From Bacteroidetes bacterium GWF2_33_38 (lineage in GTDB: Bacteria > Bacteroidota > Bacteroidia > Bacteroidales > GWF2-33-38), in NCBI GenBank assembly GCA_001769505.1, contig MEOF01000019.1, forward strand, positions 1 to 64,000: DNA of 64,000 nt. The letters run 5' to 3'. This document shows positions 39,601 through 45,072 of this stretch, piece after piece. The notes under the pieces are model-generated. The model had not been told where the DNA came from. It searched no databases and saw only the letters and a program-made list of their open reading frames with translations. The position numbers and the translations under genes are program-made. The first letter of the stretch is position 1. The number at the start of each line of letters is the position of its first letter.

Positions 39601-39654
39601 TTTTCTCGGCAGAAAACTTTTAAAAACCACCTCCGTTGATATAAGCATTTAGCT
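39601..39654. repeat. 54-bp direct repeat, left copy
   Basis: Matches 45019-45072 at 53 of 54 bases (the one difference is at 39610/45028). On the minus strand it encodes the last residues NAYINGGGF and the stop of the DUF4476 protein, but here nothing upstream continues that gene. Similarity stops sharply at both ends. Confidence 0.95.
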
Positions 39655-39762
39655 ATATCTTTTAGGGGCAGCATAAAATCAATTTTCATAACTTCTGATT
39701 CTTTACGAATTTTGTTTGATTAATATATGTTCTGCTCAATAACATATAAAAAGACTTGGATG

Positions 39763-39780
39763 TTTTTTTTTTTTTTTTTT
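39763..39780 (+). repeat. Homopolymer tract of 18 T
   Basis: Eighteen consecutive T, 71 bases upstream of ATG 39852. Such tracts can change length by slippage and could alter promoter strength; sequencing error in length is also possible. Confidence 0.9.
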
Positions 39781-39851
39781 GCAAATTGCTGTACTTTTAT
39801 AAACGTAGTTATAATAGTGTTTTGTATATAAAAAAACTAATCTCAATTATT

Positions 39852-40280
39852 ATGAAAAAAAACTTGCTGACTTTCTTGATGTTAACATGCTTATTTAACA
39901 TCGGATACTCGCAAAGTATCCACATTATAGACTTATCGGCATTGACCGCTGTTTATGCCGACGAAACCGATTTAACCAACGATTCCTTAGACCTTATCGT
40001 AAGTTTTAAACTTAAAGAATTCGATTTGGCAACGCAAGTAAATTTTATGTTTGGATCTATTCAAAATGAAGGAAACATATTGACACAAACCGCAAACATT
40101 GTTTTTGAAAACGATTCATATTTCTTGAACTATGCAAATCAAACAAACAAGATTGAGAATTACACAACAACGTGCAGCATTCGTTTGAGCAATCAACAAT
40201 ATGTCAATTATCAAACACTTACTCTTGTTGTTACAGGGCAAAACGGCGAACAAAGTAATACCTTATATTGGAACAAATAA
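39852..40280 (+). CDS. Small exported protein of unknown function
   Basis: 142 residues from ATG 39852; the longer frame from 39756 reads through the T18 tract and is unlikely. Signal peptide 1-21 (MKKNLLTFLMLTCLFNIGYS). The mature part is beta-rich (IHIIDLSALTAVYADE, LTLVVTGQNGEQSNTLYW) with a single Cys and no known domain that I recognise. No T9SS sorting domain. First gene of the repeat-bounded segment; the next gene starts 16 bases after its stop. Confidence 0.75.
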   Translation: MKKNLLTFLMLTCLFNIGYSQSIHIIDLSALTAVYADETDLTNDSLDLIVSFKLKEFDLATQVNFMFGSIQNEGNILTQTANIVFENDSYFLNYANQTNKIENYTTTCSIRLSNQQYVNYQTLTLVVTGQNGEQSNTLYWNK

Positions 40281-40296
40281 TTTAAAAATTAGAGTC

Positions 40297-43200
40297 ATGA
40301 AAAAAATAATATTTGTAGTAATTTTAAGCATATTACTGATTAATACACAGGCACAAAATGTTTTTACGGTAACTCAAACAAGCGACCCAGACCCATTTTT
40401 ATACTCAGAAAACCCTGATAATCCTGAAATTCAAGGTACATTGCAATGGGCAGTTCGTAAAGCAAACGATTCTGAATCGGCTTGTATTATTAATTTTGCA
40501 ATACAAGGAACAGCACCACACGTAATTGAGTTGGAATATGGATTGCCTTCTATTCGGCAAACGATAATCATTGATGGAACAAGCCAGCAAGGCTATCAAG
40601 AAAACATACCTGCTATTATTATCGATGGACAAAATAAATTAGTTACGGCATTTCAATTTTATTTTACTGACAATTCGGAAGTAAAAGGCTTATACATACG
40701 AAATTTTCTCATGTACGGAATAGGATTTTCAAATAGCAACAATCTAACAATTGAAAAAAATACCATCAACAATATTTATTCATACGATACTGACATAAGA
40801 GTATCAGTAGGTTTGTATTTTGCAACATGCGGGAATGTGAATATTTATGGGAATTATATAGGAAATCAACTAAATTTTGATGAAAATATACACATCGAAA
40901 ATCATGGCATACTTATAAATTTTGGAAGTACCGATTTTAGAATAGGAGACACCGAGCAAGGACAGGCAAATACAATCAGCAATGTGGGCGAAACAGGAAT
41001 AAAACTAGCAACACAAGACGATTACGGAATTACCATATCGGCAAACAAAATTTACAACAATCCTATAGCCATTTCATTACTAAATGGAGCAAATGAAGCC
41101 AAACAAGCTCCAACAATCAGTTCTTACGACGAAGCAGGAGTAACAGGAACTTCTGAGCCTAACGATGTAATTGAAATATTTGGAAGTGCTAGAGATGAAA
41201 ATGCAAATGAGTATCTAACAAGTATAACTGCCGATGAATTAGGAAACTGGACAACAACATTAGAAAATACAACATGGAATGGAATTGTTGCAACAGCTAC
41301 TGACGAAAGTGGGAATACTAGTAAATTAAGCAATGTATTTAATTCAGAAATTGATTATTGTTTAAACAATCCTATAAATGTTGGTTATGAAACGGAAGAT
41401 ATTACATGTATTGATGGTAACGATGGTAGTATCACTCTAAGTATCAGTGGAGGCTACTCTCCATATAGTATTATTTGGGAAACCAATCCAGTACAAACAT
41501 CTACAAATATAACTAATTTGATAGCCGGCACATATAAATTTAATATAACCGATTTACATGGTTGCACAAAGCATGATAGTATAACATTGACAGAACCATA
41601 TAAACAAGTACAAATCTATGAGGATTTAATATTGAATTATTCTTCTGCAAATTTATTATCTGATGTTTCTAATGCCGTAGATAAATTTGATAATTTGTAT
41701 GTTGTTGGAACTACCAACGATGATGTCCTTGTTAAAAAAATTACGTTAATAAAATATAATAATTCGGGTATTGAGCAATGGATTAGAGATTTTACCGTTA
41801 ATAGTGAATTAAAAAAAATAATAATTGATAAACAGAGTAATGTAATAGTTATTGGAACGAAAACGGAAAATAATGCAAAAAGTATTATTGCAACCAAATA
41901 TAATCAATCAGGTTCAATATTATGGAATGGCTTATACAACTTAGCGAACAGCGATGATGAAATTATTGATGCAATAGCTGACAACGATAATAATATAGTT
42001 ATCGCTGGCAATATAGATAATTACAATAAAATTTTGATAGTAAAATTTGATTACTTAGGAAATTTACTTTGGGCAACAAATTACAACGATTTTTCTTCAA
42101 AAGTTAATGCAATTGTGGCAGATGGTAGCAATATTTATCTTACAGGTTCTAGTACTAACATAAATGAAGATTTTGTAACGCTTTGCTATTCAGGAAATGG
42201 AACTTTTTTATGGTCAAAGTTATATAATGGTTCTGATAATGAAACCGATGAGGCTATTTCAATTGATATTGACAATACGAGCGTATATGTAACTGGTAAA
42301 AGTTTTAGTACTACTAATGATTATGATATTGTTACTATAAAGTATTTAAAGAATGGAACTGAACAATGGATTGCAAAATTTAATGGAGTAAGTAATAATG
42401 TTGATATCCCTTGCAAGATTGCTGTTAATCAAAACATTTTCATTACTGCAAAAAGCAATAATGGATTTAATAATTCTGACTTTTTAACATTATGTTATGA
42501 TGTTAATGGTCAACTTAATTGGGGGCAAATTTATAATGGTGCATCTAATGACAATGATATCCCTACTGATTTTAGAGTAACAAACTCAAATATTGTAGTA
42601 ACAGGTATAAGTACAGATTTTTGCACGGGTTCAGACTATTTGACAATTAATTATAAAACTACTGGTGAATTAGATTGGGTTCAACGCTTTAGTAGTGAGG
42701 GAAATAATCCCGATATCCCAAACTCAATTTCGATAGATAATAATTCAAATGTTTTTGTTTCAGGATTAAGTACAAATAAATTTGGTAATTTTGATATTAC
42801 CACTGTAAAATATAAAAATATTGAAACACAATGCCTATCCTTCCCAAACAAACTCAAAAACAAAGAAGATATACAAACTGAAAATATGAGCCGTAATATA
42901 TTTATGCTCGTAAATAGTTTTATTTATTTAGCTCAAAGCAAAGAATTACTAAATACTGTTTATAATGAAGCCAAAAAATCAGAGGACTTTGAGGTACGTT
43001 ACAACACATTAATTCAAAAAAATCCACAATTTAAAACATTGGTTGAAAAACAACTGAAAAATTGTTTTTATGCCGATAAGCCAGATATTCCTGAGCCATA
43101 TAAAGATATAGAAAGTAAATTAATATATGATAATGATTTATATGTTCCCAATATTTATATTCCAAACATTAATATAGCTGATTTAAATAAACTACCTATA

Positions 43201-43842
43201 ATCGCAATAGGCACGTCTGAAGTTAACGATGATGATGAAATTGTCGGATATACTTTGTCAAAAGATGGTCAAGTTAAGGAAATACTTATTAGTGAAGAAC
43301 TTGCAAATAGTTCTAAAATTCCAATTATTATAATGAATTACTCTATTAAAAATGAAGAAGAATACATTAAGTCAATTAATGACAGTGGGGGGATAATAAA
43401 CAATAATAAAAGCAATTCTTATAACATTTATTTAACACAATTTTCAATAAATTATAGATATGAGTCTAATTTCAGATCTGATTATCATCTTCGAATGATA
43501 TATTTTTTTAGCAGTGGACAATATGAAGATGATACTCCTAATTACTTGATAAAGAAAATAAATAAAAGAGAGATTGGGGAAGTTTTTTATGATATGTTCC
43601 CTCTCAGTGGGGTGGATTATTGGAATGATTTAATAGGGATAGCAGTTGCAACATATGAACATGACTGGTGGGCTGGTTTAAAACCTGTGGCTGTAAATTC
43701 ATCTCAAGTCCCAATGTCTCCTTGTGTTGTTCCTTGTCGGATGAGCTATTTAAATGAATGGTATCAAGCGTTTTATTTCCCTTTTAATGAATTATCATAT
43801 TCGTGCCTATCTAAAGGTTCTTGTCTAATTATTAATTTATAA
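40297..43842 (+). CDS. 1181-residue exported beta-helix / SprB / beta-propeller protein without visible T9SS CTD
   Basis: Start ATG 40297 (MKKIIFVVILSILLINTQAQ is a clear signal peptide); the frame extends 32 codons upstream into the previous gene. Residues about 20-270 resemble a right-handed beta-helix (IEKNTIN, NVNIYGNYIG). A bacterial Ig-like domain (ATDESGNTSKLSNVF) follows at about 270-345, a SprB repeat (DITCIDGNDGSITLSISGG, then IIWETNP) at about 355-433, and eight SBBP-type propeller repeats (NIYLTGSS, YLKNGTEQW) at about 448-843. The last 338 residues match nothing I know and contain YEHDWWAGLKPVAV and Cys-rich PCVVPC and SYSCLSKGSC. There is no YPNP-type sorting domain. Confidence 0.85.
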   Translation: MKKIIFVVILSILLINTQAQNVFTVTQTSDPDPFLYSENPDNPEIQGTLQWAVRKANDSESACIINFAIQGTAPHVIELEYGLPSIRQTIIIDGTSQQGYQENIPAIIIDGQNKLVTAFQFYFTDNSEVKGLYIRNFLMYGIGFSNSNNLTIEKNTINNIYSYDTDIRVSVGLYFATCGNVNIYGNYIGNQLNFDENIHIENHGILINFGSTDFRIGDTEQGQANTISNVGETGIKLATQDDYGITISANKIYNNPIAISLLNGANEAKQAPTISSYDEAGVTGTSEPNDVIEIFGSARDENANEYLTSITADELGNWTTTLENTTWNGIVATATDESGNTSKLSNVFNSEIDYCLNNPINVGYETEDITCIDGNDGSITLSISGGYSPYSIIWETNPVQTSTNITNLIAGTYKFNITDLHGCTKHDSITLTEPYKQVQIYEDLILNYSSANLLSDVSNAVDKFDNLYVVGTTNDDVLVKKITLIKYNNSGIEQWIRDFTVNSELKKIIIDKQSNVIVIGTKTENNAKSIIATKYNQSGSILWNGLYNLANSDDEIIDAIADNDNNIVIAGNIDNYNKILIVKFDYLGNLLWATNYNDFSSKVNAIVADGSNIYLTGSSTNINEDFVTLCYSGNGTFLWSKLYNGSDNETDEAISIDIDNTSVYVTGKSFSTTNDYDIVTIKYLKNGTEQWIAKFNGVSNNVDIPCKIAVNQNIFITAKSNNGFNNSDFLTLCYDVNGQLNWGQIYNGASNDNDIPTDFRVTNSNIVVTGISTDFCTGSDYLTINYKTTGELDWVQRFSSEGNNPDIPNSISIDNNSNVFVSGLSTNKFGNFDITTVKYKNIETQCLSFPNKLKNKEDIQTENMSRNIFMLVNSFIYLAQSKELLNTVYNEAKKSEDFEVRYNTLIQKNPQFKTLVEKQLKNCFYADKPDIPEPYKDIESKLIYDNDLYVPNIYIPNINIADLNKLPIIAIGTSEVNDDDEIVGYTLSKDGQVKEILISEELANSSKIPIIIMNYSIKNEEEYIKSINDSGGIINNNKSNSYNIYLTQFSINYRYESNFRSDYHLRMIYFFSSGQYEDDTPNYLIKKINKREIGEVFYDMFPLSGVDYWNDLIGIAVATYEHDWWAGLKPVAVNSSQVPMSPCVVPCRMSYLNEWYQAFYFPFNELSYSCLSKGSCLIINL

Positions 43843-43847
43843 TCTTT

Positions 43848-44453
43848 ATGAAAACTATTAAGTTTATATTTTTTATAATTGTTTTTAGTGGGACGAGGTG
43901 TGTTGCTCAAGACCAAAAGTATAAAAATGATTTAAGTATTTATTATAATTGGAAATATATTGGGAATACAATTTCAATTGATTATTGTAAAAATGTTTAT
44001 CAAAATTCATTTGTTATAGGGGCACAGATGTATTTAAATCAAATCCCGAATGTTAACGGATATCCATTTAAAGATAAGGCTTATGCTTATGGTATTTCAG
44101 AAAGATTTGGACTCAATATTGGATATAAATATATAATTAAAAACGAAAATATATTAAAAATATTCGTGAGTTCAAATATTCAATATTCAAATATTAGATT
44201 TAGGATAGAAGATGGTAATAATTTAAATGACTATGGGATTATTGCCCTTAGCGATCTTACAGATAGACATAATATTTTTGAATTATTGCTTGGAGTTGGT
44301 ATAAATATCAAAATATATAAAAATGTTTACTTTATGCAATCTGTATTTGTTGGAAAATCGTTCCTTTCTAGTAAAAATTATGGTAGTAGATTTAATAATA
44401 CGACTTCCTATAGATACGGTATAACATATCAATTTGGAAAAAATCTTAAATAA
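43848..44453 (+). CDS. Outer-membrane beta-barrel protein
   Basis: 201 residues. Signal peptide of about 21 residues (MKTIKFIFFIIVFSGTRCVA, then QDQ). The mature part alternates polar and hydrophobic residues in short strands (NWKYIGNTISIDYCKNVY, FGLNIGYKYII, YRYGITYQFG), typical of an eight-to-ten-strand barrel. It begins five bases after the large upstream gene and is very AT-rich. By analogy with SprB/SprF pairs it might help the neighbouring SprB-repeat protein, but it is shorter than SprF and lacks a firm family match. Confidence 0.78.
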   Translation: MKTIKFIFFIIVFSGTRCVAQDQKYKNDLSIYYNWKYIGNTISIDYCKNVYQNSFVIGAQMYLNQIPNVNGYPFKDKAYAYGISERFGLNIGYKYIIKNENILKIFVSSNIQYSNIRFRIEDGNNLNDYGIIALSDLTDRHNIFELLLGVGINIKIYKNVYFMQSVFVGKSFLSSKNYGSRFNNTTSYRYGITYQFGKNLK

Positions 44454-44476
44454 ATAATAACAGTAAATAAAAAAAT

Positions 44477-44977
44477 ATGAAAACAATATTATTAGGCGTT
44501 TTATTGATATGTTTTGTAAATTTATTTTCTCAAAATAGGGGTAATTTATATAATAGTACATTAACAGAATTATCAAACACAATTGGTTCGTTTTACACTG
44601 AATCATGTGATGGTATGAAAAGTATTAACGATACGAAGTATAATTCCAATTATTATAATACAGATGATGGAGGAAATGCAGTATATTTTTATAAATCTAT
44701 AGAGTTTCAACAAAATGGTGTTGCAGATAATTTTACTATCCTTATTTACCCGAATCCAAGTTTTGGAATAATAAATATTACAAGCAATGATGACACAGCC
44801 CCAATATGCCTTGAAATATACAGCAGTCTCGGACAAAAAGTATATGCCAATAACTTTAAAAACTGTGCAATGGCAAAAAACATTAATTTAAACTTAGCAG
44901 ATGGTGTCTATTATTGCAGATTTCGTAAAGAAACTGGGGCAGTATTGAATCAGAAATTAGTAATACAAAATGAGTAA
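44477..44977 (+). CDS. Miniature T9SS cargo: signal peptide, short linker and type A sorting domain
   Basis: 166 residues. Signal peptide 1-19 (MKTILLGVLLICFVNLFSQ). About 67 residues of Asn/Tyr-rich sequence with no recognised fold follow, then a complete type A sorting domain from about residue 87: ILIYPNPSFGIINI, IYSSLGQKVYANN, LNLADGVYYCRF and LNQKLVIQNE. Such domains normally sit at the end of much larger proteins. Possible explanations are a decayed remnant of a larger cargo, or a small surface peptide. Last gene of the repeat-bounded segment. Confidence 0.82.
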   Translation: MKTILLGVLLICFVNLFSQNRGNLYNSTLTELSNTIGSFYTESCDGMKSINDTKYNSNYYNTDDGGNAVYFYKSIEFQQNGVADNFTILIYPNPSFGIINITSNDDTAPICLEIYSSLGQKVYANNFKNCAMAKNINLNLADGVYYCRFRKETGAVLNQKLVIQNE

Positions 44978-44982
44978 AATAC

Positions 44983-45022
44983 AAAAAATAAGAGACTGCC
45001 TTTGGGCAGCCCCTTATTTTTT
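44983..45022. terminator. Hairpin between the miniature T9SS cargo and DUF4476 genes
   Basis: An 18-bp stem (44983-45000 with 45005-45022, loop TTTG). Two positions are A-C mismatches on the plus strand but G-U pairs on the minus strand, so it is best formed in minus-strand RNA, downstream of the DUF4476 stop. Its right arm overlaps the first four bases of the right direct-repeat copy. Confidence 0.75.
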
Positions 45023-45072
45023 CTCGGTAGAAAACTTTTAAAAACCACCTCCGTTGATATAAGCATTTAGCT
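45019..45072. repeat. 54-bp direct repeat, right copy (3' end of DUF4476 gene)
   Basis: Pairs with 39601-39654. It contains the final ten or eleven codons, the stop codon and about 19 bases downstream of the DUF4476 gene. Confidence 0.95.

Follow-up and report, generated by a model that had tools for sequence, protein, structure and literature searches.

A surface-protein operon bracketed by a duplicated gene 3′-end in Bacteroidetes bacterium GWF2_33_38: a probable insertion with long target duplication

The 54 bp direct repeat and the segment between its copies

The DNA analysed here (the window) comprised 64,000 nucleotides of one contig (G000:C19:1-64000) of Bacteroidetes bacterium GWF2_33_38, the genome of which (G000) is a 3.93-Mb draft of 70 contigs that is 99% complete. 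The nearest genomes compared were two that belong to the same family as G000 and to a different genus. Two copies of a 54 bp direct repeat were present in the window, between 39,601 bp and 39,654 bp and between 45,019 bp and 45,072 bp. They shared 53 of 54 nucleotides, the sole mismatch being C/T at position 10 of the repeat (39,610 bp and 45,028 bp respectively). A longer alignment of the two copies (39,597 bp–39,654 bp with 45,015 bp–45,072 bp) matched at 56 of 58 nucleotides, and the 50 adjoining bases beyond the repeat agreed at 40% on the left and 28% on the right, which is the background level. The sharp edges that an earlier sequence-only reading had ascribed to the repeat were thus confirmed. 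The repeat was unique in the window among non-tandem direct repeats of such length and identity. Further copies with other cargo, which that reading had envisaged, were also sought, and all 3.93 Mb of G000 contained no third copy.

The right copy consisted of 19 nucleotides of 3′ untranslated region, the stop codon and the 32 terminal coding nucleotides of a DUF4476 gene (45,038 bp–46,012 bp, reverse strand; Pfam E=7e-22), the target, which was intact and adjoined a murQ-like gene. The left copy was an orphan; that it is geneless and that the right copy corresponds to the DUF4476 3′-end had both been proposed before and were borne out by reading of the ORFs. Named matches to the DUF4476 protein were mostly from Bacteroidota. 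The gene was also found next to a murQ-like gene in the nearest relative (G001); as it is intact and has the same neighbour as in G001, the neighbourhood on the right appears to be native, and the left copy to have been displaced. The left flank, outside the insert, encoded a YhcG/DUF1016 PDDEXK nuclease (38,504 bp–39,538 bp, reverse strand; Pfam and PADLOC PDC-S02). A near-perfect palindrome of about 26 bp was observed within this nuclease gene (39,225 bp–39,251 bp).

Each repeat copy was associated with a hairpin, and the two structures exist as they had been described. A bidirectional terminator hairpin with an 18-bp stem (44,983 bp–45,022 bp; fold z = -6.4) forms the inner right-hand edge of the insert and covers four bases of the right copy. 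The weaker hairpin (39,564 bp–39,600 bp; 10-bp stem, fold z = -4.4) lies outside the insert, where it abuts the left copy, and has no T tract.

The segment between the copies (39,655 bp–45,018 bp) was 5,364 bp in length. Its GC content of 29.2%, compared to 32.6 +/- 1.8% in windows of equal size sampled from the genome, fell in the lowest 3%; the segment had been called visibly AT-rich, and while its GC content is indeed low, the bias is just a mild one. Four ORFs were encoded in a single direction, all on the forward strand. The first gene of the operon family (39,852 bp–40,280 bp) encoded a small exported protein of 142 aa that had no match in Pfam, NCBIfam or PADLOC. This was followed by a large exported protein of 1181 aa (40,297 bp–43,842 bp) with a conserved head of approximately 350 aa and SprB and SBBP repeats (Pfam), as well as a Big_6-like stretch that scored below the curated Pfam cut-off. 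The third gene (43,848 bp–44,453 bp) encoded an exported protein of 201 aa without any family match which, judged by eye, is possibly an outer-membrane barrel. Single-sequence structure predictions for two cargo proteins, this one included, were unusable (pLDDT 41 and, for the 201-aa protein, 30). The fourth gene (44,477 bp–44,977 bp) encoded an exported protein of 166 aa with a T9SS C-terminal sorting domain (Por_Secre_tail, PF18962, E=1.6e-11; TIGR04183), which Pfam and NCBIfam profiles did not find in the remaining three proteins of the insert. The description of the cargo as four exported-protein genes was upheld, as all four ORFs start in a signal-peptide-like manner when inspected by eye; a recognised sorting tail was confined to the fourth.

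No recombinase or integrase remnant was revealed in the insert by ORF reading or by Pfam and NCBIfam profiles, in agreement with the earlier statement that the segment lacks an integrase. Profile searches also found no transposase among the insert ORFs, and a DDE transposon or insertion sequence was rejected on this ground and because a 54 bp duplication is far above the usual length. The head domain of the cargo had no match in phage records, plasmid records or viral contigs, and an origin as phage or plasmid cargo was likewise rejected.

The operon family and a parallel insertion in a related genome

The insert belongs to a patchily distributed family of operons, in which a gene for a small exported protein precedes one for a large exported protein that has the common head of approximately 350 residues; genes for further exported proteins follow. 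The small and large genes are conserved together, with homologous pairs in other genomes of the order, and homologues of the 142-aa protein sit upstream of the large gene at several loci. The head of the window protein showed 42–72% identity to those of five other loci (six loci in all), while the remainder of the large protein and the downstream genes varied from locus to locus. The third genes of the operons in G001 and in a further genome, G169, also encoded a T9SS sorting domain. The operon head was present in 9 of the 393 genomes of the order. At the loci that were read, the flanking genes of the window were not common to the other operons. One genome (G049) encoded at least six operon-head paralogues (contigs C113, C136, C387, C412, C494 and C702), the downstream modules of which differed.

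G169 represents a different family of the same order, and its homologous operon has a tetR-type gene on one side and a pyridoxamine-oxidase-like (PNPOx) gene on the other. This operon was bracketed by a direct repeat, the copies of which were 138 bp and 133 bp in length and 91% identical. The left copy comprised the last codons and the terminator of the tetR-type gene, and the right copy was an orphan. In two genomes of the same genus (G390 and G395) the tetR-type and PNPOx genes were adjacent and separated by one copy of the repeat stretch, which represents an empty site; the two genes were likewise adjacent in G396, from another genus of this family. The comparison with an empty site that had been suggested for the window was carried out for this sister insertion and revealed the single copy expected. 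In the alignment the two G169 copies looked closer to each other than to the copy in G390, consistent with a duplication that postdates the separation of the species. The insert of G169 contained no recombinase. The two targets were unlike, being the 3′-end of DUF4476 (54 bp) in the window versus, in G169, the tetR-type gene's 3′-end together with its terminator (138 bp), and they differed in orientation relative to the operon. When the repeats of the window and of G169 were compared by eye, no common sequence core was seen.

Part of the window insert (39,732 bp–41,328 bp, forward strand) had a paralogue elsewhere in the genome (G000:C25:5064-6652), with 89–90% nucleotide identity in two blocks (39,732 bp–40,676 bp and 41,012 bp–41,328 bp) and 89% identity in the head region. 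The similarity began at 39,732 bp, immediately beyond the terminator of the gene located upstream on C25, and ended abruptly near 41,328 bp, within the large gene. Between 40,551 bp and 41,000 bp the paralogous heads were mosaic, with a stretch of 40–70% identity between highly identical ones; such a pattern would be expected from gene conversion or from an exchange of modules. The 77 bp between 39,655 bp and 39,731 bp showed no convincing match to C25 or to the rest of the genome. The C25 operon occupies a third, unrelated site, and its left boundary differs from that of the window. It was rejected as a case of target duplication, since the 3′-end of its upstream gene is single-copy in G000; the right side of the operon coincides with the contig end. 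Operon loci in G028 and on contig C387 of G049 had no long flanking repeat either. The lack of a long repeat at these three loci indicates that duplication is not obligatory or that older copies have decayed. A 188-bp repeat at the G001 locus was rejected as a third bracketed case because it is dispersed, occurring at L109 (9253-9440) and in a dozen or so other places, with several of its copies lying at a contig end or close to one.

The frequency of such bracketing was estimated by searching sampled stretches for direct repeats of 40–400 bp with at least 85% identity and a spacing of 1.5–18 kb. There were none in 240 kb of G169 and none in 294 kb of other relatives. G000 was richer in repeats, with six others in 526 kb by the same criterion: one dispersed-looking family, one common 3′-end of T9SS genes, and the rest short or degenerate. 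About six operon loci could be tested in this way, many others running into contig ends, and two precise bracketings in about six loci is far above background. Only that of G169 counts as independent, because the window locus was picked for its repeat.

Several other repeats were observed in G000. On contig C34 (L281, 1-103 and 4872-4972) the last codons and terminator of a gene for a 1577-aa surface protein were repeated a short distance upstream, where the contig begins (103 bp, 93% identity); this is probably a 3′-end common to neighbouring T9SS genes. An intergenic repeat of about 130 bp in the window (61,434 bp–61,562 bp) was dispersed; 16 strong matches, most of them >95% identical, were found in the genome. 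Its outer bases, TTATACCGATT ... AATTGGTATAAT, point to a MITE-like family. A 150-bp repeat on contig C1 (L271, 6198-6347 and 11654-11803; 95% identity) had ends, TTATACTAATTC / AATTGGTATTA, that resemble those of the 61,434 bp repeat, and is possibly a second MITE-like family. The window also begins with a tandem repeat (1 bp–1228 bp) that has a 216-bp unit and copies of 80–92% identity.

Origin of the duplicated 3′-end

The explanation we prefer, at a probability of roughly 0.58, is that the segment arose when a chromosomal surface-protein operon inserted non-autonomously, with a long target duplication of 54 bp. An operon copy would have entered DUF4476 within its last codons, and the duplicated sequence would run from within the ORF to 19 nucleotides beyond the stop codon. 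Such a duplication would keep DUF4476 whole and leave an orphan 3′-end at the opposite edge of the operon. The joining step would depend neither on homology nor on a recombinase with a fixed att site, and would most likely be a repair-type event, namely template switching or the fill-in of a staggered break, for which an ectopic or imported copy may have served as source; no donor junction of the insert was found. The signature of a gene 3′-end may then be an effect of survival, with insertions being kept if their duplication restores the gene. By analogy we infer that the window insertion arose in the same manner as that of G169. The view that a surface-protein cassette had inserted with duplication of the 3′-end of a resident gene gains its support from this analogy, through the architecture in G169 and the empty sites of its congeners. 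Provided that the insertion model holds, the left hairpin (39,564 bp–39,600 bp) could be the former DUF4476 terminator, as had been proposed; as it has no T tract, this idea is a conjecture.

Classically, attB sites lie at the 3′-ends of genes, and a repeat of 54 bp is within the usual range for attachment sites. The two copies could accordingly be read as attL and attR of a CIME-like island without its own recombinase, integrated site-specifically by a tyrosine recombinase acting in trans. An att site also predicts a core common to related insertions and, usually, a cognate recombinase. G000 was searched for tyrosine recombinases and, besides XerC-like and XerD-like proteins, was found to encode one XerA/integron-like protein on contig C56 (L084), the only one found that is neither XerC- nor XerD-like. 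This protein is unusual, with 536 aa, a long N-terminal extension and a catalytic domain resembling those of XerA and integron integrases. No cassette-like array was seen among the ORFs of its contig, and an integron cassette was rejected because the attC core pair (RYYYAAC ... GTTRRRY) is absent at both copies in the window and in G169. Movement without a resident recombinase has a precedent in the microcin H47 island (PMC3191183). Against site-specific integration, however, the targets in the window and G169 have no core in common and are unlike in length (54 bp versus 138 bp) and orientation, neither insert contains a recombinase or, in the window, an integrase remnant, and the close paralogue on C25 occupies an unrelated site, begins at a different left end and lacks a long repeat on the sequenced side. 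We consider this explanation, which the sequence-only reading had brought forward, unlikely.

The remaining alternatives bear on the history of the DUF4476 end itself. An excised or imported circle that carried the operon together with a DUF4476 3′-end could have entered by a single crossover at that homology, which would account for both the duplicated host sequence and the intact target gene; the mechanism has been proposed for transposed genes in Arabidopsis (PMC2869330) and could carry an existing insertion between strains. It requires a donor with the operon beside a DUF4476 3′-end, however, of which G000 has none, and it shifts the question of origin elsewhere; we regard it as improbable. 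A sharp-edged gene end would also be expected if the operon had once had a DUF4476 gene at either side and the left one had since been cut down to its last 54 bp, and a second, divergent DUF4476 gene does occur in the genome (G000:C8). An identity of 53/54 would demand that duplication and deletion were both very recent, and in the G169 parallel the empty sites contain single copies rather than duplicated genes; little weight is given to this scenario. Finally, an erroneous join at the 54 bp repeat would be conceivable in a draft of 70 contigs, but the copies differ from each other, each runs on into unique sequence, and an independent genome (G169) has the same architecture with copies that are 9% divergent, which makes an assembly artefact very improbable.

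Comparison with known systems and implications

Insertion with long target duplication was described from a comparison of Helicobacter pylori strains, in which restriction-modification genes were involved (Nobusato et al. 2000, as described in PMC1643837 and PMC3031569). There, a block of genes inserted with a long, variable target duplication between related genomes, and the loci studied here are alike in this respect. The bracketing duplications are long (54 bp and 98% identity in the window, 138/133 bp and 91% in G169), and at the two loci they vary in length (54 bp versus 138 bp) and affect unrelated genes, with no fixed target. A transposase is not reported as the cause in PMC1643837 or PMC3031569, and none is encoded by the insert here. 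The cargo differs: instead of restriction-modification genes it is a T9SS-type surface-protein operon of Bacteroidota.

Three other systems resemble the window in part. In Arabidopsis, direct repeats that are mostly genic in sequence, and present as well at the orthologous empty site, flank transposed genes, and excision of a circle from tandem repeats followed by re-insertion is the explanation favoured by the authors (PMC2869330). The mostly genic repeats around moved genes are shared with the loci described here, although the host is a plant. Similarly, the E. coli microcin H47 island is small and has imperfect direct repeats at its bounds, no recombinase of its own and an empty site in relatives (PMC3191183, PMC5426353). 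Experiments have demonstrated that this island excises and integrates, and its attachment sites are found again in many strains (PMC3191183, PMC5426353), whereas the targets here differ between genomes. CIMEs and other 3′-end integrative elements also have a directly repeated gene 3′-end and no recombination gene inside; in contrast, the homologous insertions reported here have no common att core, and no related integrase element was found.

The window insertion is best filed as a known pattern, long target duplication, extended to another cargo. A bolder proposal is that T9SS surface-protein operons move as a unit by a dedicated route that needs no recombinase and duplicates tens to hundreds of target bases. 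We think this doubtful; if it were true, these operons would constitute a transposon-like gene family without a transposase, fixed ends or a fixed target. To our knowledge, the mechanism of insertion with long target duplication is still not established. The pattern is now seen in homologous operons of two distant Bacteroidota families, one of them with a clean empty site. This widens long target duplication from restriction-modification genes to surface-protein genes and offers a new system in which its mechanism may be tested. It is also a caution against reading every duplicated gene 3′-end that lacks an integrase as an att site.
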